Source: Polytrichum commune
Taxonomy: Eukaryota; Streptophyta; Polytrichopsida; Polytrichales; Polytrichaceae
Assembly: GCA_950295325.1 (NCBI GenBank)
Contig: OX485804.1
Span: 22,010,001 to 22,074,000, forward strand
DNA: 64,000 nucleotides
Reading direction: 5' to 3'
Each line of letters starts with the position of its first letter. Position 1 is the first letter of the stretch. Position numbers and translations under genes: made by a program. Shown here piece by piece: positions 7,481 through 49,022 of the stretch. The notes under the pieces were generated by a model. The model saw only the letters and a program-made list of their open reading frames with translations. It was not told the DNA's origin and did no database searches.

Positions 7481-8119
7481 CGCCTTTGAAGGACTTTGTG
7501 GACAACTCTACTAAATCAGAGGTTTAGTGTAGTCTTGCATTGCAAGCACCCCAAAAAGGACAAATTTTCCCAGCGCTAAGTTTCAAAGAGCAGGAAGCCA
7601 TAAAAACATTTGCATGTGCTCTCTCTTTGCGGATCAGCCATGGCTCCAATGCCTCTTCTGTCTGTCTCCCAACTATACAGTTTCAATCAGGCTGTCTATA
7701 TATGTTCATGTTCAGCATCATGTGCTACTTCTTGCGAAGCACATTGCAGTGTCAATCTGTCAGAACATTTCAAGTGTGGCCATTTGGCAAACTATCGACA
7801 AGAAACTACGGTACATAAGGGTCTGCGTCCACATTCACATCTCCTCTATGTTACACTGTCGCCACTTTCTACAATCACACGTCTCTGGCTGTCAATCTGT
7901 ACAACAGGATTCACTCACTTTTGCTCCTCCACTTGTTTAGGTTACACCTCTTCTCCACCTTGCATCTCTACGTGCCAGAAATGCGGGCTCTGCTTAACCA
8001 AAAGGGTTTGGTTTTGAGAGTACTATTGTGTTTCAAGTCCGGAATGAATTTCTCACCGGTGACAAAACCCCATTGTCTCCCTTAGTTCAGCGCCAACTTT
8101 GGGTAGGAGATGGAAAGAA

Positions 8120-11100
8120 TCAAAACTCTAAGCAACATGATTTATCGTACTTTTGCTTGAGTAAGTTGGGTATACACGTGGACTGAATCAGTTCTTGCGG
8201 CCCACATAACAAGGCTAACGTTTCGTCACAGCACTCGGGTATGTGGTCTTTCACAAGAGCTTCGCATATGCGGCCTCTGCTATATTTCCAATCCTCGGGT
8301 GCCTTGCCACTCAAGGTGTACCACACCTTCAGGTTCTCGTGTGATGCTTGCCACGCATCCAGCTCCTTCCTCAGCATGATGTCCTGCTCATTGCGGTTGG
8401 TATAGAGAAGGAAAACCCTGGTCTCGTCTTCAGGGTCTGACATGATTGCTCGAATGACCTGATACATAGGTGTAATACCAGTGCCGCCTGCCACCCACAA
8501 CCTCATGAGTTGCCGTCACAGAATTACACACACCACACTCTAGTACGCCTGGACATTTCACTTCGTGTCCATGCAATATGGAAGTAGTACCCATATTCTA
8601 CTCAATCCCTGGTCTGCTTCCAGCGCATTGCAATCCAAACATGATTGCCCTCGGAATGAGAAAAACTAATGTAATTCCACCCATACTATTCAAGAACGTA
8701 GAGTGGAACATGAAGTAAATGGTGGTGTACCTGCCAACATGCTGATTTTTCGGACAAACTTTGGCTTGCCATTGATCGTGAAATGTCCTTTTCCTTCGTA
8801 GATGATGTGTCCTACAGGACCCTTCACGTCGATGGTATCACCGATCTCCAGTTCGTCCAAGTATTGGGAAAATAGCCCACCCATTGGGAACTTCGAGTGT
8901 GCGTTTCTGAAATACACTTTGATGAGGAGCTCAAAGTAGCCTACATCTTCGTCCGAGCTGGTGGGCGTGTACGCCCGCATGCAAAACTTGCCATTGATGG
9001 TCGCGCTTAAAAGGATGTGCTTCCCTGTGGGCAGCCCCAGCACATGATTCTCACTTTGGAGTGCAAACCTCAACCTGCCAAACAGTGGGCAAACTTCTCA
9101 TTAACATGATTCCCTTTTTCTTCTAAACCTCAGGCAATCATTTTTGTGAGAGTCTTCTTTCTACCTCGTGCGAGAGCAGTATTTCGGAGATTCAAAGAGG
9201 TTGAGACAACAGAGTTTTAAGGTGACTATGAGCACCTGCGGACATCCGGACTCAGAATCTCCTTCTCAATCAGTCGGAAGGGCTGTCGTTCCTTGGGATT
9301 CAGAGCCACCGGTCTTCCGGTGGAGGACACAAGATTCGCAACAGCGTCCTGTTCGTCGTCGCTGGAGGCCAAGTCGTGGTCGTCTTTGGAGGCCACCAGG
9401 TCACCCACGTAGTACTCCTCCAACATAGCTTGGGCCTTTGCCGAATGAATGGCGTCGAATTCCTCCGTAGCATCCATGCCTCCGTTGATGAGGATACTGT
9501 CTGCACCCCCTGGATGATCCTCCATGAACGGAGTGCAATCATACACTTTGCTGCGGACAACGATCCAGCAAGAATCCGCTTTTCGGTGTTTGCGCACTTC
9601 TCTCAGAGTTATCTGCCGGGCAGGAGGCCCTCCGTGAACAACCTTGGATTCTTTGATCGCGGGCTTTACGTCTGCTTCTGCACCTTGTCCTGGGGTTTTC
9701 ACCATCCATCCTCCTGTGAGGTTGCCAGGCTGAGTCGGGTGCTCGAATGTCAAATTCAGCCCCGTGTCCTCCGTTTTTTTAAGCCCGACCTTCACCCGGA
9801 ACCAGCAATTGTTCATCATACCCTGCATCACACGCACAGATTAGGAGTGTGCTGCACCGTAAAATCACCAAATTGTGAACGAAAGAATATGTGTTTTGCC
9901 CACCACAAACATCAATATAGGGCCTACTGTACGTGAGGATTTAGCAGAGCTCCGGATATCCCAGAACCCTACTCCTTCGCCACTCTTCACAAATTCCTAC
10001 AAATGCACAGGTGGTGCACCGGAAGCAGTAATTGCTGAGATACGTAGCACAGCTGCTTGTCCGAGGCTTACCATGACGTTCCAAGTGAGGTGCTGAGGTT
10101 GAGTATTCATGGCCACGTCCCAAGCACGCACAACGATCTCCTTGCATTTCAACAGCTCCATCATTTCCAAGTTGATTTGCCAGAAGCACCAGCACCAGTA
10201 CTTCCCATATCTGGTGGGTTGCTCGGGGTGCTTCAGATCGCACAGCATCCATGTCTTCCCATCATCAACGGATGCTTCCACCCTCATCACTTTGCGGCCC
10301 CCACCTGCAGGACCAACACAGTTTAATTACAACAGCATAAAGGTCCAGACTCCGTAGCTCATGGAGATTCTACAATGGAATTGCTACTGACGTGTCTTCT
10401 GCATTTTCAAAGGATTCTCCACCAAGGACGGTGATTCCGCTCACCGCTGTAAGCATAGCCCTTGACGAGGTAGGGGTCCTGGAGGGTGGAGAAGTTGATG
10501 GGAAGGGATTCGCCGTGCGCTGGAGAGCTTATGGCGGAGTTGATGTTCAACTGATTGATGATGTAGTCGGGACGGTACCACCAACCTGTCAATCAAACAG
10601 CCATCCAGTACTCAGCACTCGTTCGCTCCCTTCCTTGGCACACGCGAAAGGTGGCCCACTCGTGCAAAACAGGGTTAGGACGGAGATGAGCACCTTCAGC
10701 TTTGGCGAGCTCGGCATCCACGTGCGAAGGCAGCACCCGGTTGTCGTGGAAGTGGTAGTAGTTGCCGGACTCCTGCGAGCTGACCTCGATCTTGGTGAGC
10801 CACTTCACCATGCGGCCACCGATGTAGCCGGGGATGATGAGGCGGATGGGGAATCCGTGGTCCGGCTCCAGAAATTTGCCGTTCTGCTTGTACGCCAGAA
10901 TCACGTCCTGCGCTTCGTCCATTGCAACATCGATGGTGATGCTCGTCCCGTACTTGGATCCTCCGCCACCTGCATCGGTGCGCAAAACACCCCATAAATT
11001 AAACTACAAGTACACAATTCGGTCACTTGCACGAATCGAGCGCATTGATGACGGTGGTTACATCGCAACGTTGTAGATTTCGCTTGCACATAACGTCAGT

Positions 11101-12184
11101 GTTGCAAAGGTTTCCTCATTGCCACCTTCGTACCTGGCAACGTCTCGGCCCCTTCGAAGCACACGTAGAGGGCGCCCTTCTTGCGGGAGAAGACGCCGCA
11201 GTGCCGAAGCACGTCGCACAATCTCACGCCCCGCCAGATCGAGGTGCTCACCGCGGCGGCGCCCCAGTTGAAGCCGATGGACTGCTTCACCATGTTCTCC
11301 TCCTTCCTGCGATTGCCCGCGCACACCAATGTCACCGGCAGCTCGCGTGCGGGGAACCGCAACATGTCCTTCATCGTGTACGACGTCGGTCGCCTCACCA
11401 GCCCCGACACGTCGATCTTCCAGGCATCCCACGCTGCGCGAGGCACTACGCCGTGGTTGCGCACGTAGTGCAGAGAGGTGGGCGTCAAAAATCCAGCCTG
11501 CGCGTCACGAGAAACACATTCAATGCGCCCGTTCGTCAACATTGCACCAGGCAGGAAGCATGCACAAAAGAGGAGATTTCTGGATAGTCCACTTCACATT
11601 CAACCCTCGGATGATGAACACTCGGAGGTCAGCTTGGAAAAGCTCGAGCTATGGCTCCATTGATAAGCGACAGGGGCATGGTGGTTCCGACTCGATACTC
11701 GGCCATGTCAACCCAAATGTCACAAATCTCACACCGTCGTATAATATCGCAAGGAGCAAACCTGAGCAAGCAAATGAAATTACAGGAAGAAGATTTCGGG
11801 GGTTGAGAAGGGAGAGATGAGATTAAGCACCTCCATGAGGGTGTGCAGCGGGGGCTCGCAGTTGAAGGGATGGCGGCCCGTGAGCCGGACCAGCTCGGGG
11901 TGGCGAGGAATCCAGTCATCCGAAGTGTTCTTGTCTCTCTCGTCCACCTTCGTGACCACCACCTCCGGGATGGGCCCCCAATCCTTTTCATCCTCCGACA
12001 ACAGATCCTCCTCGTCGAATTCCTCCACCTCCACGGGAATGCGAAACCCGTTCTTCGACATGGGCGACAGGGCCCCCTCCATTGCTGCTCTGCGAGGAAT
12101 TCCGTTCGCTTGCACTTGCCCTGGCTGCGGAAGGATCTCGTCGAGGGCGGGACCGGAGAGCGGGGAGTCCACCGAGATGCCCAT
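8120..12184 (-). CDS. NIA: Assimilatory NADH nitrate reductase, copy A (8 exons, 888 aa)
   Basis: Reduces nitrate to nitrite with NADH in the cytosol, the first step of nitrate assimilation. Exons, all with GT-AG introns: 12184-11831, 11497-11134, 10969-10694, 10585-10445, 10304-10072, 9822-9236, 9074-8731, 8487-8120. They join in frame to 888 aa, normal for plant NR. Domain order: acidic N-terminus; Mo-pterin domain (HYVRNHG near 128; Mo-ligand Cys177 in [13 protein letters not shown]); dimerisation domain ([17 protein letters not shown]); hinge 1; cytochrome b5 domain with haem ligands His559 (HPGG) and His582 (AIHS); FAD domain ([17 protein letters not shown]); NADH domain ([18 protein letters not shown] near Cys861); C-terminal Phe. 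The start is the ATG of MGISVDSP; further upstream this frame offers only GTG. Hinge 1 has no 14-3-3 serine motif. Near-identical to copy B, from which it differs at about 17 residues plus a short N-terminal indel. Fungal-type NR is unlikely given the plant-type C-terminus and context. Confidence 0.96.
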
Positions 12185-13290
12185 CGTGTCCTCTCTCAAG
12201 TCCCCCGTAGCGCAATGTGCGTTCACCCTCGGCAGGGGGTCAATATGTCCAGGGTCTAAAGGCGTTCTTCACGAAATTCCACCCGCTTGGCTACTCCTAC
12301 AAAGGTACATCGTTGCGCCTGCGGAACACGCACGTCAAGTGAGCGTTAAACCTCCAACGTCCAAGCACCAAAAGCACGGTCACGTATGATTCTCAAAGAC
12401 CTGATTCTCTTGAGCTGCCCAGTGTACACGCCACTCCGAATCACACTGACCGCCCACTCACACAGTTCGCTGGGTCTGGTGGAGGAAACTCCCGCACTGC
12501 AGGCATTTCGACTTATGTATGCTCAATAATCACTAGTGCTAAATGGGAAATTAGCAGATTCCGGAGGGGATGCAATTCCAAGTGCCAGACCCACGACTAA
12601 TTCTTATTGCCTGCAAATCCAATTCGGACGAAGAGAGAACCAAACAAATGCCTCGCACGTTACTGCTTACTCATGATTCATGCTTGCCTGGTAGCCCACA
12701 ACATGATGATAGCAACACACAACACATGCGTTGCCCACAGGGACATGACACCGGTGAACTTTCCCCTCCCCCGCGCCCTTAAGCTTTAGAAAGCAAGCCG
12801 CGCCGCACGAAATCAGTCACTGCCGCGACGGCTTTGAAATAATACCACGCCCATCCTCCACTTTGCCAGACCCCATTAGACACACACAAACACACACACA
12901 CACACACACACACTCTCACAACACACACCCCGACATGCATATATCTCACGCCTGGGCCACCGAACCATACTTATATCCATCCTCCCCTTGCAGCACCAAA
13001 GTTCCTCGAAAACCAAACCACATTTTTTCTTTCCCTCACTCACACACACACGCGCGCGGACTTCGTACCTGCGCCACCAGACCATGAAGTCGCAGTCTCC
13101 TTGCAATCCACCGGAATCCTCGTAACCACGCCAATCCAATTTCCGTCCTCGACTCAAATGTGCAGCTCGGACGCAATTAAATCTGGACACTTGCGAGTGT
13201 GATGAGCAGTAGTGTTCCAACTGCAGAGGTGAATCTCACACGGCTACCTCCACAGCCCCGGATGTCGTCCTGGGAGTTCGAATTATGAGA
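12185..13290 (-). promoter_or_regulatory. 5' flank and probable promoter of nitrate reductase copy A
   Basis: This upstream DNA aligns with the copy B flank but with many substitutions and gaps. It contains a CA/TG microsatellite at 12880-12931, about 0.7 kb before the start codon, and a TTCCC tract beyond it near 13470-13498. I could not define a TATA box or transcription start. Some of it is probably 5' UTR. Confidence 0.5.
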
Positions 13291-15635
13291 TCGTTGCCGC
13301 GATTGCTGATGAATGTGGACTGTGATTATGTGATGAGAGGGCTAATGTGAGCCCAAATATATGAGCGAGATTTTGTGGTAATGAGAAGAGTGGAGTGATC
13401 TTGTTAGCGGCTGTACGCGGCGACCAACCACAGCCTGTTCCCACATACTAGGCGAGCCGCCACACCCCACCCTTCCTTTCCCTTCCCTTCCCTTCCCTTC
13501 TTGCCTCCTCCACCTACCTACCATGTGGCCGTCCCGACCTATCACCTTCTGCCACCTGTGCGGCCCTTGTTTGCAAACACAGGGGATTCCATGGAGTATT
13601 TGTTACTTACACCGATTCACAGGGCCCTCTTTAGTATGGGAAACGCACAAAAGGTCGTGTTGTCGAGGTGTTGTCTTCTCATTACTATGACAAATGGCGT
13701 AAAGTTTTCGTAATATGGAGGGAATACGAAAACATAAGTAAATATGAGCGTAAAAATATATAGGCAGCGAGTTTAAGTAGTATAAGGTAGAAATATCATA
13801 AGTCGTTAACCACCCTCTAGTTGTGCACTAGACCGCTGTCATAATGGTGAAGTGCCATTTCTGAAACGGATCATGGTTTGGCAATAACTTTAATGCGTGT
13901 ACACTTAGTGTAGCCAATGGGAGTCAAGTGTTTGATGTACTCATGAGGTAACCGATTTAGGTGATCTGTATGGAAATGCGGATTACCATGTTCGGTGTAG
14001 GGAAAATCTAGTGAACGAGTAGGGGGTTGAACAAACTATCTTGTTTGAAAAATTGTAGCATTTTTTGTATGGGGCAGTAAAAATATGAAACAACTTGCAT
14101 TCTTCATGAATCCTTCTCATCTATCTTGGAAAATTATCTCATGATTGTCAGACCGGATCTTCAATACGAATCACCTTGTTTTCACGGGTTATGGTATTTC
14201 TACCTTAGATGGTATGAAATAATAATTTGGAACTCCAAATAAATATAAAATGTTCTCATGAACTCTTCAAATAGGAGTCCAAAGATCTATGTTGTTGCCT
14301 ACCCAAGTTAGCAACTGTCATCTTATCTAAATTCCCTACTGACTTTTCAAAACTACTAATTTCATTAACACCAAAATATAAAGAGTTTTCTAATAAGAAA
14401 CTAAACAACAATGATGCATGACATTTAGCACCGACTACTACACTCGTTATTTATCCTGATTCATGGGTGTTACGATTTGGAGTTGTGCAATGCAATAACC
14501 TCTCACTTTGGAGTTCACTTATCTATCTTAATGGGCTCACATTCATGCCGGTACACATGTACGGGGGTTATCTTTTATTTATTTTATTCAATTCTATGAA
14601 CGAAAGTGCAAATAGGTTGTTTTACATGTTATAGAACATGAAAAACTTTGCTTGGTAAAATATTACATTCTCGTTAAGTAGTTGTAGCATTGCATAATTT
14701 TGAATAGTTACACGTACTAGTTGGGATTATCAATGTAGTTATGGATGAACAGGTCCGTTTTCCCAAATTACAAGATCAAAATCAACATTCTACAAAATGA
14801 ACCGAACTATACTCTGGACATGAATAAATATATAAGGAAAAAACCGAAACATTTCAATGAATAACTGGTTGATAATAAACAAGGATTTGTGACCAAGCTG
14901 GCTCACCATTGTCCCCGTATATTGATGTACATATTGCTCGGCCTTTGGTACATTTTAGTACATTTTGTTTCCCAAGTACCTACCATGGGGGGACAATAAA
15001 GACCCACGTTGGACCGGTATAGGTAGGAGAGTGGGAATTATTGTATATGAGTGTACCTCTCGTTCATCCAACATAAACTCTTTGAAATAGTATGCAACCC
15101 AAAGATTGTTTTTTAAAGTTTATTTGACAGTGGGGTTAGTTTTAAAGACTTCAGATTAGTCTACTCAATGCTATTTGAGTTGAATCAACAACAATATATA
15201 TAAGGGGGGGGCAATTTTTATATTGGATGGGTGAGAGGTATCCTCGAATACAATATATACCTCTCTCCATATAGGTATACGTGAATGCATACCAATTAAT
15301 ATACAATATCAGTTAATTAACATCAATTTTCATATTTAGGTGGTTTTGATAAAGGGGCCCACACGCACATGGCTCTGACTCTAAAAGAATAGTGCCACTT
15401 ACTCCTCCTACACCCCTTCGAGATGCTCATTGAAAATTGTTCGTATTCGTTGCAAAAAATATTCAAATCACCGAACTAGTTTTGATGGTGGTACTTTGTT
15501 TGAATTCCCAACTTCTCTTAGTTGGACACAAATCCAAGTATGTTCATGTTCTATGTGGAACTGAGGTCCGAAATAATGTCAGGGTCATAGACCATGTTCT
15601 TAGTACATAGTCTTGCAATTTCTTGTCAACCCTCA
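13291..15635. other. Intergenic, AT-rich, no gene seen
   Basis: Contains a TTCCC tract at 13470-13498 just past arm A. Nothing else is recognisable on either strand. Confidence 0.6.
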
Positions 15636-16130
15636 GGGGCAGTTTACACTATGGACCATGAAGTCGTCCCACGGCCGTCTAAGAGATGTGATTGGACGTT
15701 GAAGTCGTCCCGGGACGACTTGGGTTTACACCAAGGAAAAAATGGCAGAGTGACCACGGAGGTTGAGGTCCACAAATTTGTTTTTTTAAGCCTATTCTAT
15801 CCACTGCCATGGTCCAACGGGTTTTCCGTTGGGACAAGCAAAAGAGGTGGTCTAGGAAAAATAGCAAGGGCCCATGTCAGAAAAATGCCGTTTTAATGAT
15901 TTTTTTGGATTTTTTTAATGATTTTTTTTCAACTTAGTTAATGACTCCACTTTTTGGTGCATGGTCATTCTTCATGGTCCACATTCGGTTTACACCTAGT
16001 GAAGGGCCCACGAACCATGAAAACTAATATTTTAGTAACTCGGACCATGGAAGTCGTCCCATGAAGTCGTCCCACGCAAAATAGGCCTCTTACATGGGAC
16101 AACTTCATGGTCCATAGTGTAAACCGCCCC
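15636..16130. mobile_element. PIF/Harbinger-like MITE
   Basis: A 495-bp element with about 38-bp inverted ends, left GGGGCAGTTTACACTATGGA and right (reverse strand) GGGGCGGTTTACACTATGGA. The flanks are TCA and TTA, a one-mismatch version of the 3-bp TTA duplication of this superfamily. CATGAAGTCGTCCCA recurs near both ends. No ORF of note. Confidence 0.75.
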
Positions 16131-16893
16131 TTACTTGTTGCGGTGAGTTAGAATGACCCTAAATATAAGGTGAACCCTTCTTCACCTAATGCCTAACAAA
16201 TGAACTACCGACGCCCCTTAGTCTTGTGTAGAGTAGTATTTACGTATAGTAAATTAAGACGCGAATGACTAAGGGCACAAGTTGGAGTTGCCTTAATCAT
16301 CATGCGCCAATTGTGTGTTTCATACTCTATCAGACTTGCATGCAGAGATGAAAGTATCCAAATGACACACATCTATATTACCTCAAATAAATTGGTGTCT
16401 AATTTTTTCATGGAATTTTGCATCGTAAATTAATCTAAAATTGTGCTAGAACCTGCAGATAATAAGATTGTGAACTACAACCCATGATCACTGGTTGCCA
16501 AGCTTCTAAAATTTTGTGAATATTTGACCTTTTTAAAGTAGGAAAATCATCACTACTTTATTTTGTTTTGGCTATAGTAAAAATTTAAAATAAATTAAAA
16601 CAAAAAAACCAAAACCTTCTTGAACCTCTTTCCTTACTTTTAAAATTGTTCAACGAGGGTTGGCCATATCGCAAAGGGGTCTACGGTAAAATGTATTAGA
16701 TGTGAACATTGTGAACATTGTAAACTTTCTAAAGTAAGTTTGTCCATACACTTCTAGAGCCATAAACATGGGAAAAAACAAAACTTGTGTTTCATGATGT
16801 CCCATTTGGAATAATGAATACGACAATAGTACTTTATACATCAAGGTTGTTTTCCAAACCAAACTAGCTCACTAGACCATCGTTATCAATCAG

Positions 16894-17042
16894 GACTTTC
16901 TTTTTTGGAACACATGAGGTGTTTGACAACCTTGTTAGTTTTCCATCAAGTAGAGAGACGATTTCACGATCAGGAATTGAACCGCCAACCACTCCATTTG
17001 GTTTCGGTACCTTTCCACTATCATGTGGTAGTTTAAGAACAA
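16894..17042 (-). mobile_element. tRNA-derived SINE-like repeat, copy 1
   Basis: Minus-strand sequence contains GGTTCAATTCC (17 bases after GGAGTGGTTGGC begins), matching a Pol III B box, preceded by an A-box-like GATAGTGGAAAGG about 40 bp earlier. It matches 41300-41447 over about 140 bp. A body derived from a tRNA is the best reading; a repeat with chance B-box similarity is the alternative. Confidence 0.55.
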
Positions 17043-20000
17043 TTATATTCAACATCACTTATCCAAAAAAAATTGACACTCGAAGATTAGTCTAGGAGAA
17101 AAATCCAATATGTTCAGGTGAAGTAATTGATGGCATTTATTTCTTATGATTATTCATATCCATGAATAATTGCTGGTGAATATCATATTTTTCATAAATT
17201 TTATTTCCAAATTAACCACACATTTGCATGTGTCCATTAATCATTTAGCGATTGATCATAATTGCAACAATGAACGCACACTCATACATAACATGTCACT
17301 TTATGTTCATTCCTCAATATATCCTCACAATCGATCCGGTTTGGAAAATACCTCCATGTGGTACCATATCTACTTGGGAGAATGGGAATCTTCATCATGC
17401 ATAGCAACGGGAAGAGTCTAGTGCTCAAGTATCCTCGCCTTTATAACTTCATGATAAAGGTGTGAATGCAATACTCCATCACCATACTACATGTAGCATC
17501 CCGAGTGGACTTGTCATGCTTTTTTGACTAAACACCATGTGGCATTCCATATATCATATTGTTCCATTTTCAATCTACATTGTGTTTCATGATTGTGTCC
17601 AATGTTTGTCCTTTGAATTGTTTGTAAGGTTGTTGTGATTCCACGTGTTGGTGTTGTGGACGTCTAGGTATCGTTTTAGTGAAGGTCTATGGTGCATGAG
17701 CATTGAAACGTATCCATGCCATTAATGCCAAGGTTTCAATTGAAGTGCTCACTGGGTTGCTTGCTTCAATTCCTGCTACCGAAAGTGTTACGACTTTGGC
17801 CCCATCAATCACACAAAAAAGTTGTGGTAATCCCAATGTGACTTTTCGTGTTGCGAATCGACATTCTTGCACTAAGTAACAAATGGTGGATTTGGATTGG
17901 TTGTATATAAAATATCAAGCAAAGACATTATAATGAGCTACATTTGAAGTTTTGATAAAATATGAGTGGAACATGACCATGTGCGACAAATATAAGACTT
18001 AGCCCTATGCTTTTTCTTGTTTTCCTTCTTCTCTAGCATAATGTTAAATGTGCCTAGTTACTACAATGGTCACTTGTAGATGTGACATTAAGCATTATCA
18101 TACCACAAGCCATCATTTCATAGATGATATCGGTTTGACAACTCATAGACTACTTTCATCGGCACTTCATTTGCAATATTGATGCTTCATATTTTAATGT
18201 TTTCACAATCCAATTTAAAACACATGTGTGTATATATATATGCTAGCGCAAAACAACCATGCACTTCATAACAAAATTGAGGCAAGTATGAAACAATTCT
18301 TCGGCATTACCACACCACAAATACTAAACTTGAGGAATTTCTAGCTAGTGTTTTTGTCATACCATAAAATAACAAATAACACCAATGTACAACATACAAC
18401 TTCATGAATATAAAAAATGCCAATATAGACACATGCCCCCCCTACCCCCCCCCCCCAAACCTCCCTTTCATTCATGTGCCTACCCTATTCTACCCTACCT
18501 AAGCCTCAAACCCCCCTATTGCCTCATCATGTTGCTTACATGCCCATTCCCTTTACTTGGATTATTTCACATGCCCATATAAAATTTATAGGGCCTTGGA
18601 AATTTCCAAAATGGACAAAAAATTACATTGCCCTATGCTTATGAAACGTGTTTTGCCCAACACTCACCAACACAAATCAAACCTCCTCTACATTGGGTGC
18701 ACATAACTTGAATTATTATTTGGCACACGCAATCATGCTTGCATTGCTATATGCAATGGTGGTTTGTATGGGACTATATTGACGTTGATTCACTTTGCCA
18801 AAGCCATTGCTCACTGAGGCCATAGCAATTTGGAAAACTAAATGGCCAAGCTCCCCCGCACCCCTCCGTCCATTGCTTTGCATGTACAAAATTTACATGT
18901 TGATCAAAATGGTGTCCAACAAAAAAAAAATGAACAACAGTGCCATCACTTGTAGGTTCGCAACTAGCATGAATAGAGCCTCCTAAGGTGATCCACAACA
19001 TCAACATCTCACATAAATAAATTTTAAAAACCCTATTCTCTAGTTGCCCTCCCATGCTACAATTGTTTCTAAAGTTGCCGCCAATGTTTCTTCCCTCGCA
19101 TTCCGCTCATTGTCCTCCTTTGTGGACACTTCATCTACACATAAAGTTTGTAAATGCATTCAAAGGCCAATAATTTAGACTACGACATGCTAGAAGACCT
19201 ACTAGCACAATCATCTAAGCTCTAGTTGGTTCCTTCTTTTTCCCAACCCTCACATCCATTGTTTAGATCCTTATCATTATTTCATGCATGTATGAATGTA
19301 TTTCTCTATTATGAGTGGAAATTGAAGTTGATTGTATTATTTCCTTGTTACTTTTAGAGTCCAAATCAACATTGTGTTCGCCCCTTGTTCTCAATGTAAA
19401 TTTGCAAACCCCTATGGGCAATGGTTTTGTTCCTCCATTTTCTAAAACTAAATGTGCAACATGAGTTGATTTATGATAGGATCAAAGTATGAATTTGTAG
19501 GTACCCTACACACATAGGGAGGCACTACAACAACCATTTGCACACAGTCAAGCAAAGAGTATGCAACATGCACAAGTGTTGGGAGTCTACATGCATCAAA
19601 ATTAGCTTCCTCCTTACAAAAACCCGAATCACAAATTTTTATAACGCGCATAGGGCAAAAAGTTTGGACGAGATGGCCTCAAAATATCCAATGCACTCAA
19701 AATTTGAAACTAGAAAGCGCACTTGAAGACAAAGTTATAAGTGGGGTGGGAGATGTTTGGGTCTCACATCCAATTGGGCATGACTTGCTTTGCCGTGATC
19801 TTGGGGCGTTGAGTGGGTGTTTGTGATGCCCAACACTTGACACATTACCACATTTCTTATTATCAGGTTGAGCTCCACTTGAGCCAATGTTTGTGTGTGT
19901 GTGTGGGGGGGGGGGGGCAACAACAATTCCTTCTTGGGCGTTGGCGATGGTTTTGACATATGAGGCCATTTTGTCGTTCAAGGTGTCGTTCCCTTCGCCA

Positions 20001-21037
20001 CCCACTCATCACTATGCATAGACAACATCGACAATGTAAAGGAACATGGCAACAACACATTGTTGGGCATGTGGCCATCGTTGCCTCGTTGTGTGGCGGG
20101 GGGGGGGGGTGCATCTTGCCAAAGCAAGTCTTAATTGACCGCCATGTTCACATCACCTAGCAATTCATGTATTCCTTCCAACTAAGAATATTGACGACTT
20201 ACCTCCTAAGAAGCCATCAACAATCTCCAGGAATCCCATGGATGCTCACACCCCACAACAAACGGGCCTCCTCTCATTGAACATAACCTCAAAGTTTAAG
20301 AGGCTCCAAGTTTGTTTGGCCCATAATTCAGTCATGCCCACATCTACAACTAACCACTTCTCAATTGTTGCCCTACCCATTATAATGGGCCATCAATCCT
20401 AAGGGAATGAGATTATAGGTAGAATGCATATTGTAAGAGAACAAGCCAAAGACAAAAGCAGAGAGATTCATGATGGATGACAATGTAAACGATCTCTTTC
20501 TGAATGCAAATGGCATGGGCCTCACTTTCATTATTTGGTGAATTGAGTTGTGGGATTGTTTTTTGCGGCTAAATGTTGGTAGTTGGAGGGGGGGGGGGGG
20601 GGAATCACAAATTATGTAATTTTAGCACGCATTGTGATGGAAAATTTACATGACAACAACAACATAATTGACAAAATGGAGCGTGTCAACGGATGGGCAT
20701 GGCACAGAGGAGTATTTATGTAGAATTCTCAATTTATAACAAATAAGTATATTCAAAATTTTGTGTGTGGAATTTATCAAAGGGGAGTAGAAATAACTAC
20801 ACTCACTCCATACCACATGCATGAATCCTTATCCCAATTGGTGGCCATTAGATCATCTGATGTGTATGGAATCAAAGCAAGTTGTTTATCCTTGCCTAGG
20901 TAGAGTACAACCCGCCCGGTCTCATTCAATTGCTTTGAAAAAAGAAGGATGTATATATATATATTAGTGGTGTAATAAAGGTTTGGATACAAGAATAGAA
21001 ACTATGAAGATAATAGAGTTATTCATAAACTAAAGAA
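17043..21037. other. Intergenic, low-complexity rich
   Basis: Holds C runs near 18450, G runs near 19904, 20099 and 20587, and TA repeats near 18232 and 20951. A minus-strand 61-codon frame at 17687-17872 has protein-like composition but no recognised motif. I see no supported gene. Confidence 0.5.
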
Positions 21038-21406
21038 GATGAAATCGTGGGTTTAGTCCCAAACCTTGAGTTTATGAGAATTAACACAAAGTCACTCAAG
21101 TTTTCTCAATACTTAAACTATTGTACACAAAGACTGGTGTTGGGTTAGTAGAAGTCGGCTTTCTAGCTTGTCCTCCAAGGACGGGTGGCTCAAGCTAGCC
21201 TTGCATAGGTTGATCCGGGATTTAAGACAATGAGTCCCATGCACATACCCTAATTTAGATCTTAAAATTCTCTCAAAGTTTGAGATGTGGAAGGAGGAGG
21301 TCCCAAAATTCTCACCCAACTTCCAAAATAAGCTTTGATATACAACGAGATAACAAGCTCCTAATAGAAAGGTCTCTCAAAGAAGGATCAAACCCATAGT
21401 TTCGTC
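21038..21406. repeat. Dispersed 0.37-kb repeat, copy 2
   Basis: Second copy of the repeat at 7122-7480. Its ends pair better: GATGAAATCGTGGGTTTAGT on the left and GACGAAACTATGGGTTTGAT on the right (reverse strand). That suggests a TIR element. No target duplication was identified. Confidence 0.65.
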
Positions 21407-24400: not shown

Positions 24401-24879
24401 TGATGATCACACCCCCACCCAATATTGTTGGGTTCCAAGTTTTGAGTTACCTAACATACCTCCCATGTGATGGGGTGCAAATGATGATGTGTGATGTGGA
24501 ATAGGGCCTTGTACGTCTCTTCACGACACCTAGAGGCTAGAATTCCACCAACCTCAATATATAGGGGGTACGAATGTGCGATGGCTTTTGTTTTGTTTTT
24601 GTCTTTGTCCTCAAAATGGGGATCTAGAAGAGGAGAAAAATAATAATCTTATGTTTTTGTCAATCATGTGAATCACGGGAAGGAAGCATCATGTGTAGGT
24701 CTCCTAAAATCGACATGTTTATGGTGTCCATAACAAGTAGAGGAAATGACTCCCAATAAGTTAGTCATTGTCACACCTGGATGCTTTGATAATAGAAGGT
24801 GGTCATGTCCTCATTTGAAGACATGAGCAACAATGGCTTGGGTAACATCCTTCCATCTTCAACATCTTCTAAATGAAGT
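21407..24879. other. Intergenic with a CpG-richer island near 22.2-22.6 kb
   Basis: Mostly AT-rich filler. The 22215-22620 stretch has more CpG and ends in GACT/GACG tetranucleotide repeats. It is open on both strands for 60-100 codons but matches no family I know. Confidence 0.5.
22860..22985. repeat. CCTAGT hexamer tract and adjacent perfect hairpin
   Basis: Variants of CCTAGT/CCTAGA/CCTAGC repeat about ten times at 22866-22930. At 22958-22985 GATTAGGGCACC and its exact complement flank a 4-base loop. No gene is seen nearby. Confidence 0.6.
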
Positions 24880-39000: not shown

Positions 39001-39396
39001 AAAGCTAAGCAAATGCATGGCTCCCCACGACTCTAGTACCACATTTCAATGATGTGGTATACTACCGTACGTGCATGCATTGCATGATCCGGCAAGTTTC
39101 TTAAGACCTAAATGACTTTGGCAACACGTGGTTTCGGGGGAAAAAAGCTACATATTCTCAACACCTATGTGCTATTTGGGATATGTTGAATTCTTAGACA
39201 TGATGAATATGTGCATTGATTCATTTCCATGGATTCCTCAAAGCAAGGTTACTAAGTAAAGCTCTCTCCACATGCTTCCAATTTCATTCTTCAAATGTTT
39301 TTGGGACAAAGATCTTAACAAGGATTTGAGGAATTTCATTGGGATTTGGTCGTACTTCGGTAGCTCCATTCACGAGGGTTTTCTGAAGGGAGGAAA
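33100..39396. other. Intergenic, no supported gene
   Basis: Contains AAT repeats near 33300, CT repeats near 33594, a TTCC tract at 35868-35888 and C runs near 36509 and 37303. A minus-strand frame at 37903-38109 is unrecognised. No transposase or host domain was identified. Confidence 0.5.
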
Positions 39397-39713
39397 GCAC
39401 ACTGAATGTGATATTTGGTGTCACCAACACTAATTGTTAACCAAGCACTATTTGTCGTTCCTTGCTATGTTTTTTAGATAATTATAGATTTACAGTGTTA
39501 CAATTACAGTCACTTACCAAGTGAAATTTCATCCAAGTTTCAATCATCCATCACAAATTGCTGACAAGGGAAAAGGTAGGGTATTGACCAATGGTTGAAC
39601 TCATCCATCATCCATGACAATATTTGTCCACTTATTCATAAGAAGTGTCCTCCAAAGAGTTACCATAGTCACATAAAATACCATAGACACTAAATATCAT
39701 ATTTTAGTGTAGT
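39397..39713. mobile_element. MITE, CTACACYAAATAT family, copy 2
   Basis: About 317 bp. Its whole length aligns with the reverse complement of 42300-42635, including inner stretches such as ATTATAGATTTA and GAACTCATCCATCATCCATG. The left end is more worn than the right. No ORF. Confidence 0.7.
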
Positions 39714-39922
39714 TGATATCTTGAAGGAGGTTCAAAAATATGAATGAACTTAAGTGTCACAAGGCATTATGTTTACCAACTTTCATATAGAAATGGGGTT
39801 CTGTTTCTAGGAACAGTTGTCCTTTACTTGTTATTTTCTCCTTTTCCCACAATTGAAGATTATATATGGGAAATTCATGTGCATGATTCGGGCTACACAA
39901 TCACTGGAATGAGTACCAATGC

Positions 39923-39944
39923 TAAACCCTAAACCCTAAACCCT
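39923..39944. repeat. Interstitial telomere-type repeat
   Basis: Three consecutive CTAAACC-type units, the plant telomere repeat read on the C-rich strand. Too short to be a telomere; possibly a telo-box or a scar of repair. Confidence 0.7.
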
Positions 39945-40772
39945 CCTGTACTAACATGGTGGTCTACTTTTTGGCACATCTCCATGTCTACAAGATTTTA
40001 GAACAAAGATGCTTATGGAATTTTGAGATGGTTAAGGATGATGCCACAATCTTTCCACAAAACTAAATTCTATTTGAATTTTTGTCGAGGTAAAAAATGG
40101 GGTAGAACAATGCACTATCTTCATGAAATTTAGAGGTAGATCTATATGCAACTTTTAAAAATGTAACTATGTGGATGTTAATATAAGCAAGTCTTAACGG
40201 TCTGTGGTCAACTTTCTTCTTTGTGCATGATTACTTGCATAGATAATAGTGGGTGTATATAAGGAGAATGCTCGTGTATAGCCACGCTTCATAAATCCGT
40301 TTTGGGTTTACAAATAGGTTTGCAACCATGATCAAGGATGAAGAGTTTCTCATTTCAGTCAATGTAAGGTTGGCGTTGCCTCCCTCTCCACATAGAATGG
40401 TACATGCTTGACGACTTTGGAGCATGCTTTGACCACCACTCAAAGTGACAAGTTTAGTATAGAATGAAGTCCTCGTATTTTGAAAATAAATTTGAAGTTC
40501 AAAACACCCAAAGTCCGAAGATCTCCCATCAATACAACCTATGCACAAGAATGACATGATAGACGCAAATTAAATATATGTTAAATTTTTGAATTTGATG
40601 GGAGGTGTCAAAACTAACAAATGAGTATATGTTGATTGTTCAATGCCACGAAGAAAATGTAGAACAAGTTTGCGTAATGTTGACATCTTGATTTTTTAAA
40701 TTATTTTTTGGTAAATGCATGTATATCCATAGAAAGTGTCAAACACATGTTTCAAAAAGTACATGTAAGTTA

Positions 40773-41000
40773 CTACACTAAATATTGTACTTAGTGTCAC
40801 TTACTATTAGTTATTATGCCATGCTATAATTAACTAGTCAATGCATATGTCACTTTTTGTCTAGTAAGATCAAATTGGTTATTTGGACATTATAGAACAT
40901 GAACATCTTTATTTAGTTAAACATATACATTCGTAGTAAACGATGTAACATTATGTATCTCCAAATAAGTGAGCAACACTAAATACAATATTTAGTGTAG
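40773..41000. mobile_element. MITE, CTACACYAAATAT family, copy 3 (short form)
   Basis: A 228-bp element with almost perfect 26-bp inverted ends beginning CTACACTAAATATTGTA. The interior does not match copies 2 and 4, so it is a shorter subfamily. The flanks are TTA on the left and TTG on the right. Confidence 0.7.
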
Positions 41001-41299
41001 TTGTGAATATTGGCGTGCTTTTCAAACAAGTCACACACTGTCAATGCATTTTTATGTTTATTTTAGTTTGAAGTATTTGAACAAATTTAGTTGTTGAAAA
41101 GGAAAGAACTACCACAAGTAAGGCAAAGCCCGAGAACCATGGCCCCCATGGCACGCAAAAAAATAAGAATGCTTGAAGCCCGACTTCTAAATTTGTCCGA
41201 TGATCCATATGATTGCTCCCCGTCATCTCTCTAACACACCATATTGCATTGAACCCACGGAGAATAAGCTAAGCGGGCCTAAAACAAACACTTTTAACT

Positions 41300-41447
41300 T
41301 TGTGCTCACTTCTTTTTGGAACACAGGAGGCGCTTGATCACTTGGCTAGTTTTCTGTCAAGTAGAGAGACGATTTCATGGCCGGGAATCGAACCGCCAAC
41401 CACTCCATTCGGTTTGGGTTCCTTTTCCGCTATCATCCAGAAATGTA
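41300..41447 (-). mobile_element. tRNA-derived SINE-like repeat, copy 2
   Basis: The minus strand reads GATAGCGGAAAAGGAAC, then GCGGTTCGATTCCC, which fit A- and B-box positions. After this it shares GTCTCTCTACTTGA and TGTGTTCCAAAAA with copy 1. There is no full tRNA fold, so it is not a tRNA gene. Confidence 0.55.
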
Positions 41448-43229
41448 GGATCATCTCGGACCACTTTGTGCTCACTTCTTGTAATATTTGAAACATGCCA
41501 TTAGTGTGTCACAATTAGCAATTTCACATCATGCCATTAGGCATGTTTCTTATCGTTTTTGGAACTCATATACATATCTTAATCATTATCAAAGTCAAAA
41601 TTCTCTCCCTTATGAATATAGAAACACATGATTTGAAACTACACTATTTGGTGTTCGTTCTTGGATCCACGCCTAACCACATACCGGTTATATAGTTTTT
41701 TTGGGTGGGAAGTAATAAAAGAGACGTGAGAGACCCAAGCTGACCCTACCCTAAGTTTGGCCATTTTTTAAGCACTTACTCTCTATGAATTCTCTTGGAG
41801 CACATAGCGAACTCCAATATGCACCTGCTAGCACAAAATTTTGTGGTATTTGGTTTGCATTTTCAAGTCTAAATACCTCATCAAACTAACATGTTTTCAA
41901 TTTCAAGCAACATTAAAAATTTTCATTTTTTCAAATTTTGGTTGATGACATGGTTGTCTATTTCGTTTTTAGGGTTGAGGGACGATGCCTTGGTCTAAGT
42001 TCGCCTTACACTATGTCTCGTTACCAAGGCTTTGGAAAAAGTGATATAGATTTTTCTTCGAACCGTTGACCATGAGCACGAGATATCCATAATCCTTTTT
42101 CCTCACGGCCCTTGGTCACATGTGTAAAAAAGGGCCTGTTGTATATCACAACCCTTCCCAAACGGAGAAATTACGGTTTGTAAACAAACGGGCACCCGAA
42201 TGCGCTTGCTCCAAGTTACCTTCCTGACAATAGAGCTACGCCGATTATAGCAAGAAATAAGTTACGGGTGTGGTGACTGCGGGATACGATTCACAAACAC
42301 TACACTAAATAAAATAGAAACTAGTGTCAACAAGGGTATTTTATGTCACTATGATAACTTTTTGGACAACAATTCTTATGAACGAGTGAACAAATATCAT
42401 CATGGATGATGGATGAGTTCATCCATTGGCCCAAACCCCTACCTTCTCTCGTCCACAACTTGTGATGAAATATTGTCATAAACGATTGAGAATTTGGATG
42501 GAAAATCACTCGGTAAGTGACAGTAATTGCGACACTCTAAATCTATAATCCCCCAAAACATGTCCATGGAACGACAAATAACATCGTGTTAACATTTAGT
42601 GATGGTGCCACTAAATACCATACTTAAAACTGTAGCAGAACTAGGGCTTCCACCAGGTCCACCTAGGCAAGGCTAGCCTAAGGCATTTGATGAAATTCCT
42701 AATAAGGAAGACTACTAATAAGGCGACAAAGGCTAGGTTAAAAAATTTAGGGTAGCAACAGGCGGCACTGAAGGGTGCCCTGATTCGACTGGAGGACCTC
42801 CCAATTAGGTCTACGTGGCAAAGCATAGAAGGTACGAAGGGGTGCCCCAAAGCGGAGAATCTCCCAGCGAGGTCCACGTGGCAGAGGTGGTCGGTAGGAA
42901 GGGCCCCCGGGAGTGGACGATTCGCCGTAGAGTCTACGTGGCCGAGGAAGGTTGGAAGGAAAAGCGACGAGGACGGTAGGTCAGAGGCGCGGCAGGAGGC
43001 AACAATCCGGGCGGGATGTGGCGGCTCGCCCAGCATGTGGGAACGGCCTGGGGTTGGTGGCTTGCAAAGATCCCTCCGCGCATCATCAATGCACAATGAT
43101 GGTGATGGTGATTCACGGCCACTGCGGGCTGGCTGGAGGGAATGAATGAAGTCATGATGAATATTGTCTCACTACTGAAATTGGCCGCTCTGCCCCCGCA
43201 TCATCAGATTCATCATAAGCATTTCTCAT
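41448..43229. other. Intergenic, apart from the MITE at 42300-42635
   Basis: GC content rises from about 42640 towards arm B. The minus-strand frame at 42641-43096 is Arg/Pro/Ser-rich and unrecognised; I do not support it as a gene. Confidence 0.5.
42300..42635. mobile_element. MITE, CTACACYAAATAT family, copy 4
   Basis: A 336-bp element, inverted relative to its close relative at 39397-39713. The ends are CTACACTAAATAAAAT and (reverse strand) CTACAGTTTTAAGTATGG. No ORF. Confidence 0.7.
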
Positions 43230-44542
43230 ATATTCTATTAACTCCCAGCAGGAGATCCGGGACTGTGTAGCCATGTGAGATCCATCTCTACAGTTGGAAT
43301 ACAAAGTGACTGCATGCTCACGCAGCTCGCACAGGTTTGCCTCGGAGCTGCACGGTTTGAGTCGAGGAGGGAAATTGAATCGGTGTGGTGTGGAGGATTC
43401 CGGGGGGGTTGCGATTAGACTGCGACTTCATGGTGTGGTGGCGCAGGTACGAAGTGAGTGCGTGTGTTGTGTGTGTGTGTTGTGTGGGAGGGGAAGGGGG
43501 GGGGGGGTTATAAGGGTGGTGGTTCATGATGATGTGTTTGGGTGATTTGAGTTGAGGAAAAGGAAAAATTGTGGTGTGGTTTAGAGGAAATTTGGTGCCG
43601 CAAGGAGAAAATAGACATAACTTAAAGTACGGTTCGGCGGCGCAGGGATAAGATACGTGCATGTGGGGATGGTGTTGCGAGGGTGGGTGTGTGCGTGTGG
43701 AATGAGTGTATGGGGTCTGGCAAAGTGGAGGATGGTTTTAATGTTATTTTAAAGGTGTGGCGGCAGTGACTGAATTCGTGCGGCGCGGGTTGCTTTCTTA
43801 AGCTTGAGTGGTGGGTTCGGGAGAGGTGTTGGCTGGGCAGATATAAGTGTGGGTGCGGGGATAGATATTGGGGGGACCATTTCTGGCAGATGCGGGGCAG
43901 TTCGGGAATCCGGACTGCTTCCTATCGGCATTTCAGGAGAGCATGGTACGGTAGGGGCGGGGGGGTTCAGCAGTGTCATGCCCCATGTCTTGTTTGTTGT
44001 TGTTATCATGTCGTGGGCTAGCAGGCAAGCATGAACCAGGGGTGGGCAGGAATGTGTGAGACAGTTGTTTGGTCCCATGGCTCTCTCTTCGTCCGAATTT
44101 AATGGTTACCAATAAGAACCCGCAGTTGTGTGTGACTGGCAGCAGGAATTGCTCCCCCTCCCCGAATCTGCTGTTTACCCATTTACCCTTAGTGGTTCTT
44201 GAGCATTCTTGCGGCGAAATGCCTGCAGTGCGGGAGTTTCCTCCACCAGACCCAGCGAACTGTGTGAGTGGGCAGTCAGTGTGATCCGGAGTGGTGTGTG
44301 CACTGGGCAGATCAAGAGAATTAGGTCGATTCTTTGAGTATACCCTGAGGGTCATACGCGACTATGCTTTTGGCGCTTGGACGTCGGAGCTGTGACGATC
44401 ACGCGAGTTGCGTGTTGCGCAGCACTCCCATGAAAGTTTGTAGGAGTAGCCCAGTCTCTGGAATCTAACGAAAAGCGCCTCCGGACCCTGAGGGGTGGTA
44501 AGGGAGAACGTACATTGCGCGACGGGGGACTTGAGAGAGGAC
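43230..44542 (+). promoter_or_regulatory. 5' flank and probable promoter of nitrate reductase copy B
   Basis: Counterpart of the copy A flank, longer by an insert near 43805-43955. It carries a GT-rich tract at 43457-43487 about 1.07 kb before the start codon. An upstream reading frame at 44364-44468 would lie in the leader if transcription starts before it. No transcription start can be fixed by eye. Confidence 0.5.
44364..44468 (+). other. Possible upstream ORF in the copy B leader (34 aa)
   Basis: An ATG at 44364 opens a 34-codon frame ending in TAA at 44466-44468, 74 bp before the main start. Copy A has GTG in place of this ATG, so the full frame is specific to copy B. A shorter ATG frame inside the same stretch (12-13 codons, sharing CRSS) exists in both copies. 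Transcription across it is assumed, not shown. Confidence 0.3.
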
Positions 44543-47500
44543 ATGATGGGCATCTCGGTGGACTCCCCGCTCTCAGGTCCCGCCCTCGATGACATCGATC
44601 CGCAGCCAGGGCAAGTGCAAGCGAACGGAATTCCTCGCAGAGCAGCAATGGAGGGGGCCCTGTCGCCCATGTCGCCCATGTCGAAGAACGGGTTTCGCAT
44701 TCCCGTGGAGGTGGAGGAATTCGACGAGGAGGATCCGTTGTCGGAGGATGAAAAGGATTGGGGGCCCATCCCGGAGGTGGTGGTCACGAAGGTGGACGAG
44801 AGAGACAAGAACACTTCGGATGACTGGATTCCTCGCCACCCCGAGCTGGTGCGGCTCACGGGCCGCCATCCCTTCAACTGCGAGCCTCCGCTGCACACCC
44901 TCATGGAGGTGCTTAATCTCATCTCTCCCTTCTCAACCCCCGAAATCTTCTTCCTGTAATTTCATCTGCTTGCTCAGGTTTGCTCCTTGCGATATTATAC
45001 GACGGTGTGAGATTTGTGACATTTGGGTTGACATGGCCGAGTATCGAGTCGGAACCACCATGCCCCTGTCGCTTATCAATGGAGCCATAGCTCGAGCTTT
45101 TCCAAGCTGACCTCCGAGTGTTCATCATCCGAGGGTTGAATGTGAAGTGGGCTATCCAGAAATCTCCTCTTTTGTGCATGCTTCCTGCCTGGTGCAATGT
45201 TGACGAACGGGCGCATTGAATGTGTTTTTGGTGACGCGCAGGCGGGATTTTTGACGCCCACCTCTCTGCACTACGTGCGCAACCACGGCGTAGTGCCTCG
45301 CGCAGCGTGGGATGCCTGGAAGATCGACGTGTCGGGGCTGGTGAGGCGACCGACGTCGTACACGATGAAGGACATGTTGCGGTTCCCCGCACGCGAGCTG
45401 CCGGTGACATTGGTGTGCGCGGGCAATCGCAGGAAGGAGGAGAACATGGTGAAGCAGTCCATCGGCTTCAACTGGGGCGCCGCCGCGGTGAGCACCTCGA
45501 TCTGGCGGGGCGTGAGATTGTGCGACGTGCTTCGGCACTGCGGCGTCTTCTCCCGCAAGAAGGGCGCCCTCTACGTGTGCTTCGAAGGGGCCGAGACGTT
45601 GCCAGGTACGAAGGTGGCAATGAGGAAACCTTTGCAACACTGACGTTCTGTGCAAGCGAAATCTACAACGTTGCGATGTAACCACCGTCATCAATGCGCT
45701 CGATTCGTGCAAGCGACCGAATTGTGTATTTTTAGTTTAATTTATGGGGTGTTTTGCGCACCGATGCAGGTGGTGGAGGATCCAAGTACGGGACGAGCAT
45801 CACCATCGATGTTGCAATGGACGAAGCGCAGGACGTGATTCTGGCGTACAAGCAGAACGGCAAATTTCTGGAGCCGGACCACGGATTCCCCATCCGCCTC
45901 ATCATCCCCGGCTACATCGGTGGCCGCATGGTAAAGTGGCTCACCAAGATCGAGGTCAGCTCGCAGGAGTCCGGCAACTACTACCACTTCCACGACAACC
46001 GGGTGCTGCCTTCGCACGTGGATGCCGAGCTCGCCAAAGCTGAAGGTGCTCATCTCCCTCCTAACCCTGTTTTGCACGAGTGGGCCACCTTTCGCGTGTG
46101 CCAAGGAAGGGAGCGAACGAGTGCTGAGTACTGGATGGCTGTTTGATTGACAGGTTGGTGGTACCGTCCCGACTACATCATCAATCAGTTGAACATCAAC
46201 TCCGCCATAAGCTCCCCAGCGCACGGCGAATCCCTTCCCATCAACTTCTCCACCCTCCAGGAGCCCTACCTCGTCAAGGGCTATGCTTACAGCGGTGAGC
46301 GGAATCACCGTCCTTGGTGGAGAATCGTTTGAAAATGCAGAAGACACGTCAGTAGCAAGTCCATTGTAGAATCTCCATGAGCGACGGAGTCTGGACCTTT
46401 ATGCTGATGTAATTAAACTGTGTTGGTCCTGCAGGTGGGGGCCGCAAAGTGATGAGGGTGGAAGCATCCGTTGATGATGGGAAGACATGGATGCTGTGCG
46501 ATCTGAAGCACCCCGAGCAACCCACCAGATATGGGAAGTACTGGTGCTGGTGCTTCTGGCAAATCAACTTGGAAATGATGGAGCTGTTGAAATGCAAGGA
46601 GATCGTTGTGCGTGCTTGGGACGTGGCCATGAATACTCAACCTCAGCACCTCACTTGGAACGTCATGGTAAGCCTCGGACAAGCAGCTGTGCTACGTATC
46701 TCAGCAATTACTGCTTCCGGTGCACCACCTGTGCATTTGTAGGAATTTGTGAAGAGTGGCGGAGGAGTAGGGTTCTGGGATATCCGGAGCTCTGCTAAAT
46801 CCTCACGTACAGTAGGCCCTATATTGATGTTTGTGGTGGGAAAAACACATATTCTTTCGTTCACAATTTGGTGATTTTACGGTGCAGCACACTCTTAATC
46901 TGTGCGTGTGATGCAGGGTATGATGAACAATTGCTGGTTCCGGGTGAAGGTCGGACTTAAAAAATCGGAGGACACGGGGCTGAATTTGACATTCGAGCAC
47001 CCGACTCAGCCTGGCAACCTCACAGGAGGATGGATGGTGAAAACCCCAGCACAAGGTGCAGAAGCAGACGTAAAGCCCGCGATCAAAGAATCCAAGGTTG
47101 TTCACGGAGGGCCTCCTGCCCGGCAGATAACTCTGAGAGAAGTGCGCAAACACCGAAAAGCGGACTCTTGCTGGATCGTTGTCTGCAGCAAAGTGTATGA
47201 TTGCACTCCGTTCATGGAGGATCATCCAGGGGGTGCAGACAGTATCCTCATCAATGGAGGCATGGATGCTACGGAGGAATTCGACGCCATTCATTCGGCA
47301 AAGGCCCAAGCTATGTTGGAGGAGTACTACGTGGGTGACCTGGTGGCCTCCAAAGACGACCACGACTTGGCCTCCAGCGACGACGAACAGGACGCTGTTG
47401 CGAATCTTGTGTCCTCCACCGGAAGACCGGTGGCTCTGAATCCCAAGGAACGACAGCCCTTCCGACTGATTGAGAAGGAGATTCTGAGTCCGGATGTCCG

Positions 47501-48619
47501 CAGGTGCTCATTGTCATCTTAAAACTCTGTTGTCTCAACCTCTTTGAATCTCCAAAATACTGCGCTCGCACGAGGTAGAAAGAAGACTCTCACAAAAATG
47601 ATTGCCTGAGGTTTAGAAGAAAAAGGGAATCATGTTAATGAGAAGTTTGCCCACTGTTTGGCAGGTTGAGGTTTGCACTCCAAAGTGAGAATCATGTTCT
47701 GGGGCTGCCCACAGGGAAGCACATCCTTTTAAGCGCGACCGTCAATGGCAAGTTTTGCATGCGGGCGTACACGCCCACCAGCTCGGACGAAGATGTAGGC
47801 TACTTTGAGCTCCTCATCAAAGTGTACTTCAGAAACGCACACTCGAAGTTCCCAATGGGTGGGCTATTTTCCCAGCACTTGGACGAACTGGAGATAGGTG
47901 ATACCATGGACGTGAAGGGTCCTGTAGGACACATCGTCTACGAAGGAAAAGGGCATTTTACGATCAATGGCAAGGCAAAGTTTGTCCGAAAAATCAGCAT
48001 GTTGGCAGGTACACCACCATTTACTTCATGTTCCACTCTAGGTTCTTGAATAGTATGGGTGGAATTACCTTAGTTTTTCTCATTCCGAGGGCAATCATGT
48101 TTGGATTGCAATGCGCTGGAAGCAGACCAGAGATTGATTAACATATGGGGCCTACTTCCATATTGCATGGACATGAAGTGAAAACCCCGGGCCTACTAGA
48201 GGGTGGTGTGTGTAATTCTATGATGGCAACTCATGAGGTTATGGGTGGCAGGCGGCACTGGTATTACACCCATGTATCAGGTCATTCGAGCAATCATGTC
48301 AGACCCTGAAGACGAGACCAGGGTTTTCCTTCTCTATACCAACCGAAATGAGCAGGACATCATGCTGAGGAAGGAGCTGGATGCGTGGCAAGCATCACAC
48401 AAGAACCTGAAGGTGTGGTACACCTTGAGTGGCAAGGCACCTGAGGATTGGAAATATAGCAGAGGCCGCATATGCGAAGCTCTTGTGAAAGAGCACATAC
48501 CCGAATGCTGTGACGAAACGTTAGCCTTGTTATGTGGGCCGCAAGAACTGATCCAGTCCACGTGTATACCCAACTTACTCAAGCAAAAGTACGATAAATC
48601 ATGTTGCTTAGAGTTTTGA
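44543..48619 (+). CDS. NIA: Assimilatory NADH nitrate reductase, copy B (8 exons, 892 aa)
   Basis: Second nitrate reductase gene, pointing away from copy A. Exons: 44543-44908, 45242-45605, 45770-46045, 46154-46294, 46435-46667, 46917-47503, 47665-48008, 48252-48619. They join in frame to 892 aa. All cofactor motifs are present: Mo-ligand Cys181, haem ligands in HPGG and [12 protein letters not shown] for FAD, GGTGITP and CGPQELIQ for NADH. It differs from copy A by an extra Met at the start, an extra SPM unit (SPMSPMSK against SPMSK) and roughly 17 substitutions, mostly mild ones such as E/D, I/V, T/S and Y/H. The seven introns (333, 164, 108, 140, 249, 161 and 243 bp) match copy A in length. 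An in-frame TGA at 44489 excludes an earlier start. The 3' end faces ELP6, which is convergent. No defect is visible, so it should be active. Confidence 0.96.
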
Positions 48620-49022
48620 TTCTTTCCATCTCCTACCCAAAGTTGGCGCTGAACTAAGGGAGACAATGGGGTTTTGTCACCGGTGAGAAATTCATTCCGG
48701 ACTTGAAACACAAGATTACTCTCACAACCAAACCCCTTTGGTTAAGCAGAGCCCGCATTTCTGGCACGTAGAGATGCAAGGGGGAGAAGAGGTGTAAGCT
48801 AAACAAGTGTAGGAGCAAAAGTGAGTGAATCCTGTTGTACAGATTGACAGCCAGAGACGTGTGATTGTAGAAAGTGGCGACAGTGTAACATAGAGGAGAT
48901 GTGAATGTGGACGCAGACCCTTATGTACCGTAGTTTCTTGTCAATAGTTTGCCAAATGGCCACACTTGAAATGTTCTAACAGATTGACACTGCAATGTGC
49001 TTCACAAGAAGTAGCACATGAT

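Follow-up and report, generated by a model that had tools for sequence, protein, structure and literature searches.

A sharp divergence step within an inverted pair of nitrate reductase genes in the moss Polytrichum commune points to gene conversion

Two intact nitrate reductase genes of Polytrichum commune stand head to head in an inverted repeat, and the silent divergence between the two arms changes in a sharp step inside their continuous homology: K2P rises ~13-fold, from 0.019 in the gene body to 0.251 in the upstream DNA. We consider it very probable that the pair stems from an older inverted duplication, in which the gene bodies were later overwritten by gene conversion while the promoters drifted apart. 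The process as such is known, and the nitrate reductase pair is a new, clearly resolved example of it. In the following sections, we describe the genes and the repeat, the pattern of divergence and its possible explanations, and comparable pairs in this and other genomes.

The gene pair and the geometry of the repeat

The window, by which we mean the whole 64-kb stretch of DNA that was analysed, is part of contig C2 (70.3 Mb) of an assembly that comprises 408 Mb in 64 contigs. Gene A lies on the minus strand (8120..12184, start to stop codon) and is modelled with eight exons (12184-11831, 11497-11134, 10969-10694, 10585-10445, 10304-10072, 9822-9236, 9074-8731, and 8487-8120) that encode 888 aa. 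Gene B lies on the plus strand (44546..48619), and its eight exons (44546-44908, 45242-45605, 45770-46045, 46154-46294, 46435-46667, 46917-47503, 47665-48008, and 48252-48619) encode 891 aa; a further ATG codon of its open frame, at 44543, directly precedes the modelled start. The start codons are 32.4 kb apart. The seven introns of each gene have GT..AG ends and the same lengths in both gene models (333, 164, 108, 140, 249, 161, and 243 nt), and the proteins match at 874 of 888 aligned residues (98.4%), which agrees with the first-pass annotation of a divergent inverted pair of intact genes with equal introns and ~98% identical products.

A Pfam scan of protein A returned the Oxidored_molyb, Mo-co_dimer, Cyt-b5, FAD_binding_6, and NAD_binding_1 domains, all five above cut-off. 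Both genes are thus predicted to encode complete plant-type assimilatory nitrate reductases with five domains in one chain, and the enzyme itself is ordinary. When one nitrate reductase exon was used to search a structure library, only cytochrome b5 domains and their relatives were returned. In seed-plant nitrate reductases, the RxxSxP phosphosite in hinge 1 is the site of 14-3-3 regulation. This motif is absent anywhere in protein A, the protein that was scanned for it.

The near-identical arms of the repeat (7717-12072 and 44667-49022, 98% alike) measure 4.4 kb. BLAST links 7717-12728 with 43984-49022 at 95.3% identity, and a weaker homology continues inward to 13290 and 43224, followed by an extra homologous piece of 53 bp (13420-13472 and 43009-43061). 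The homologous arms therefore extend over ~5.6-5.8 kb, with ~30 kb between them. The structure had been called a giant inverted repeat, of which the inverted repeat holds and “giant” is generous. Past the outer borders at 7717 and 49022, a comparison of 5.7 and 6.0 kb of flanking DNA gave no significant homology, the best match covering 40 bp with E 0.014.

A search of the 408-Mb assembly with a 229-residue piece of the protein, in which the best candidates were scored, gave four strong exon matches, all within genes A and B, and two weak matches of ~30 bits each on C7 and C6. A third nitrate reductase copy or a donor elsewhere was thus not found, the strong matches being confined to the pair, and a search with the upstream region likewise returned five matches from A and B only. 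A mobile element at the outer border was also considered, and searches on both the B side and the A side did not find one: the outer flank of B (49023-50400) matches only itself in the assembly, and a dispersed repeat on the A side stops ~200 bp short of the arm border. Nor did we see a cluster of nitrogen-assimilation genes, as related matches sit on other contigs (C6, C1, C7, and C5). These comprise three nitrite/sulfite-reductase-like matches on C6 and C1 and seven nitrate-transporter-like matches on C7 and C5, none of the latter over the family cut-off.

The divergence step and its explanation

Within the gene body, A 7717-12050 aligns to its partner without a gap and differs by 80 substitutions in 4334 sites (1.8%, K2P 0.0187). 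The 135 sites that follow, from 12050 up to the start codon, add 5 substitutions and a 9-nt indel, which lies in exon 1. The upstream parts of the arms (12185..13290, minus strand, in A; 43224..44545, plus strand, in B; delimited by BLAST and alignment) carry 226 substitutions in 1066 aligned sites and 20 gap events. When non-coding DNA alone is compared, 226/1066 upstream sites differ versus 48/1801 in the body (Fisher p = 6e-59), and the absence of indels from the non-coding DNA of the body gives weak extra support (Fisher p = 0.053). The best single change point of silent divergence lies at A 12135, ~50 bp into the coding sequence (2x log-likelihood gain = 319.5), with 71/2674 silent sites differing on the gene side and 229/1082 on the upstream side, where all third codon positions are counted as silent as an approximation. 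This change point defines the inner limit of the homogenised part of arm A (7717..12135, minus strand), which comprises the gene body and ~400 bp downstream, and its alignment partner defines that of arm B (44595..49022, plus strand).

The homogenised tract includes the introns and is itself a mosaic. In intron 7, 18/243 sites differ between A and B, compared with 20/1155 in the other six introns together (4/333, 4/164, 1/108, 4/140, 3/249, and 4/161 for introns 1-6). The exons vary as well, with the lowest dS in exons 2-6 (0.020), a higher value in exon 1 (0.050), and the highest in exons 7-8 (0.076). The region of intron 7 and exon 7 forms an older island (8180..8920, minus strand), which differs at 30/409 silent sites versus 41/2265 in the rest of the tract, a contrast that was matched in 0/2000 permutations. 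In a cluster scan, the grouping of the 80 body differences was matched in 0/5000 random placements at each of the 150-, 300-, and 500-bp windows, and the longest difference-free gap in the body measures 404 bp (p = 0.033). Three divergence levels in one arm are hard to obtain from a single duplication and easy to obtain from an older duplication that was overwritten more than once.

We infer that homologous recombination between the arms transferred sequence non-reciprocally. An inverted duplication would first have set the two genes head to head, after which the promoters of A and B diverged. Later non-reciprocal conversion between the arms would then have rewritten the gene bodies, including the introns, from the outer end of homology to a point ~50 bp into the coding sequence, and the mosaic suggests that it did so more than once. 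Exons held by selection may retain enough homology for strand invasion, and the conversion tracts would carry the introns along and halt where indels had broken the homology, as in the promoter, or at the outer border of the duplication. If conversion is limited by broken homology in this way, no special signal near the start codon is needed for the bodies to remain alike while the promoters do not.

For Physcomitrium (Physcomitrella) patens, a Ks of 0.85 has been set against 45 million years (PMC1952061). At this pace, which is assumed here and applied to a mixture of K2P and Ks values, rough ages of ~13 million years result for the upstream DNA, ~4 for exons 7-8, and ~1 for the middle of the gene. 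Should conversion once have extended into the upstream DNA as well, the upstream age is a lower bound for that of the duplication. Dating the duplication by its coding sequence would make it far too young, as the promoters record the older duplication and the bodies the later overwriting. If this reading is right, arms ~30 kb apart are still able to convert each other. An unusually efficient homologous recombination is described for P. patens (PMC13120521).

The first-pass annotation had offered a young duplication or gene conversion as explanations of the pair, and the ~13-fold higher divergence upstream together with the patchy silent divergence of the body favours conversion over a single young duplication. 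Both genes are intact, their introns are equally long, and 4.3 kb match without a gap, as would be expected of one young inverted duplication with promoters that have since evolved unusually fast. We nevertheless regard it as improbable. A TG-rich part of the upstream DNA may have a higher mutation rate, but the differences extend beyond simple repeats, and 12185-12569 alone still has a K2P of 0.22. Furthermore, a young copy does not account for the patchiness within the body, and gene-limited plateaus of identity recur at other pairs of this genome (see below).

It is less probable still, and in our judgement very unlikely, that the pair is an assembly artefact, in which two haplotypes or collapsed copies were joined in inverted orientation. 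The join is taken from the assembly, and a join of two haplotypes had been raised earlier as a possible source of the pattern. However, the inner flanks of the genes differ by ~21% and by indels, the outer flanks lack significant homology over the distances given above, the flank 49023-50400 is found only once in the assembly, and the window contains no N bases. Finally, purifying selection alone would fit the constraint on the protein (dN/dS ~0.19; 0.0073/0.0381), but it is hardly credible as the force that holds both genes alike, as the silent sites of exons 2-6 differ by only 0.020, the introns and 3′ DNA are similar as well (the 48/1801 non-coding sites above), and nearly all intron bases would need to be selected; the homogenised introns thus argue against protein selection alone.

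Comparable pairs in this genome and in other species

A light-harvesting-family domain search of the assembly gave 58 matches, and from these, comparison sets of like-scoring, close-lying matches were picked by hand, which makes them a biased and not a random sample. Gene-limited plateaus were observed in all four sets that were aligned with their flanks, namely inverted pairs on C7 and C1, a palindrome on C4, and a direct pair on C7. In the inverted C7 pair (31392011-31392711 and 31394380-31395080), the open frames are uninterrupted and 99.7% identical over 701 bp, and identity spans almost exactly the first ATG to the stop codon, with flank windows at 31-47%, mixed edge windows apart. The members of the inverted C1 pair are ~68 kb apart and differ at 29/447 sites between their two domain matches. 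In 150-bp windows, their identity is 86-100% across the gene and 36-49% upstream; downstream, windows of 55-76% follow before the alignment gives out. In the C4 palindrome of light-harvesting-family genes (5552398-5568410), 250-bp windows of 96-100% alternate with stretches of 48-77%, with edge windows between them. The direct C7 pair has a plateau of 98-100%, flanked on one side by windows of 81-89%.

An array on C5 (1751760-1846160) contains 14 light-harvesting-protein genes, 10 on the minus and 4 on the plus strand, with identities of 96-99% in a 501-bp core, outside of which BLAST similarity ends after 87-166 bp on average. The best BLAST pieces average 95.9% for the 51 same-orientation pairs and 93.7% for the 40 opposite pairs, but the latter pieces also reach further upstream on average (166 versus 87 bp), which depresses their identity. 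Inverted orientation was considered as a condition for conversion and found no support, as same-orientation pairs in this array are no less alike and the direct C7 pair has a plateau. Light-harvesting-family copies on C2 share pieces of 84-99% identity. Two linked nitrate-transporter-like genes in direct orientation on C5, which score below the family cut-off, are not homogenised (pieces 71-86% identical), which shows that linkage alone is insufficient. Taken together, conversion in this genome looks recurrent, not universal, and possible without inverted orientation. On this reading, the nitrate reductase genes and these other pairs form a set on which it could be measured how far conversion tracts extend in a plant.

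Similar systems have been described in several lineages. For tandemly arrayed genes of P. patens, a high similarity is reported, and gene conversion is named as a process that may have homogenised them (Lang et al, 2008, as cited in PMC3045890). As characterized there, they resemble the present genes as linked, near-identical paralogues for which conversion is invoked, whereas the analysis here resolves a single pair at the level of bases and shows that its promoters have diverged, that the edge falls within the coding sequence, and that the interior is a mosaic. Inverted gene pairs of Caenorhabditis likewise consist of divergent paralogues in maintained inverted repeats, and gene conversion has been proposed to keep their arms alike (PMC1803023). 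According to this account, spacers as short as 126 bp occur there, and the similarity includes the intergenic parts of the arms; in P. commune, in contrast, the spacer measures ~30 kb and the promoters have diverged. In dipteran hsp70 genes, which include inverted pairs, conversion is backed by polymorphism data (PMC3071340). The pattern reported for them is close to ours, with homogenised coding regions, similarity that falls with distance from the coding region, and indels in the flanks, but their intergenic distances are of a few kb and their support comes from polymorphism, whereas our reading, across a ~30-kb spacer, is drawn from one assembly. A literature search on gene conversion in moss nitrate reductases, covering titles and the starts of abstracts, yielded only bacteria, a fungus, and an alga. 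No description of this pair was found at that level, although the pair may nevertheless have been published.

In P. patens, the nitrate reductase genes Pp6c10_5150 and Pp6c10_5180 (PMC12917456) are, judging from their identifiers, probably closely linked on the same chromosome, as in the pair analysed here; a count of three NIA genes is also given for this species (PMC4351199), compared with the two found in P. commune. As the P. patens genes appear linked by their numbering, the inverted pair could be ancient and common to mosses, with the P. patens pair as its orthologue, the bodies re-homogenised in each lineage, and each promoter keeping its own identity. We put this forward tentatively and consider it rather unlikely. 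If true, it would mean that a single enzyme evolves jointly in two genes under separate control, and whether the pair is shared across mosses is the most interesting question that it raises.

Among other genes noted in the assembly, a chalcone-synthase-like inverted pair on C5 (18037252 and 18046913) and peroxidase genes on C2 (23.12-23.37 Mb) occur in both orientations with scores that are the same or almost so.

The spacer and neighbouring features

The spacer between the inverted arms (13473..43008, no strand assigned) had been described as packed with old transposons, and some elements can indeed be recognized in it, namely a reverse-transcriptase-like (LINE-like) fragment, a foldback element, and a copy of a dispersed 400-bp repeat, among other repeats. 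The reverse-transcriptase-like open frame (29222-29530) reaches 29.1 bits in Pfam, just below the cut-off of 29.6. The foldback element (25811-28583) has arms that are 98% alike near its centre (26407-26876 and 27623-28092), a similarity that falls outward to 93% and then to 86% at the ends; the element lies between the reverse-transcriptase-like frame and another open frame (24891-25463), which has no Pfam match and which we take by its look to be endonuclease-like. An Rfam scan of the window returned no match at the gathering score.

The dispersed repeat of ~400 bp is present at 7104-7513 and 21017-21396. It has 2340 first-look candidates in the assembly, and among the 40 that were scored, non-self matches are 74-78% alike. 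Outside arm A, an open frame on the minus strand (5783-6178) gives weak helix-turn-helix matches, one of the Sleeping Beauty transposase type and all below cut-off, and is perhaps part of an old Tc1/mariner-like element. Beside gene B, an open frame on the minus strand (51832-52296) has a weak ELP6-like match below cut-off, and beyond it lies a UDP-glycosyltransferase-like open frame, also on the minus strand (62328-63236).
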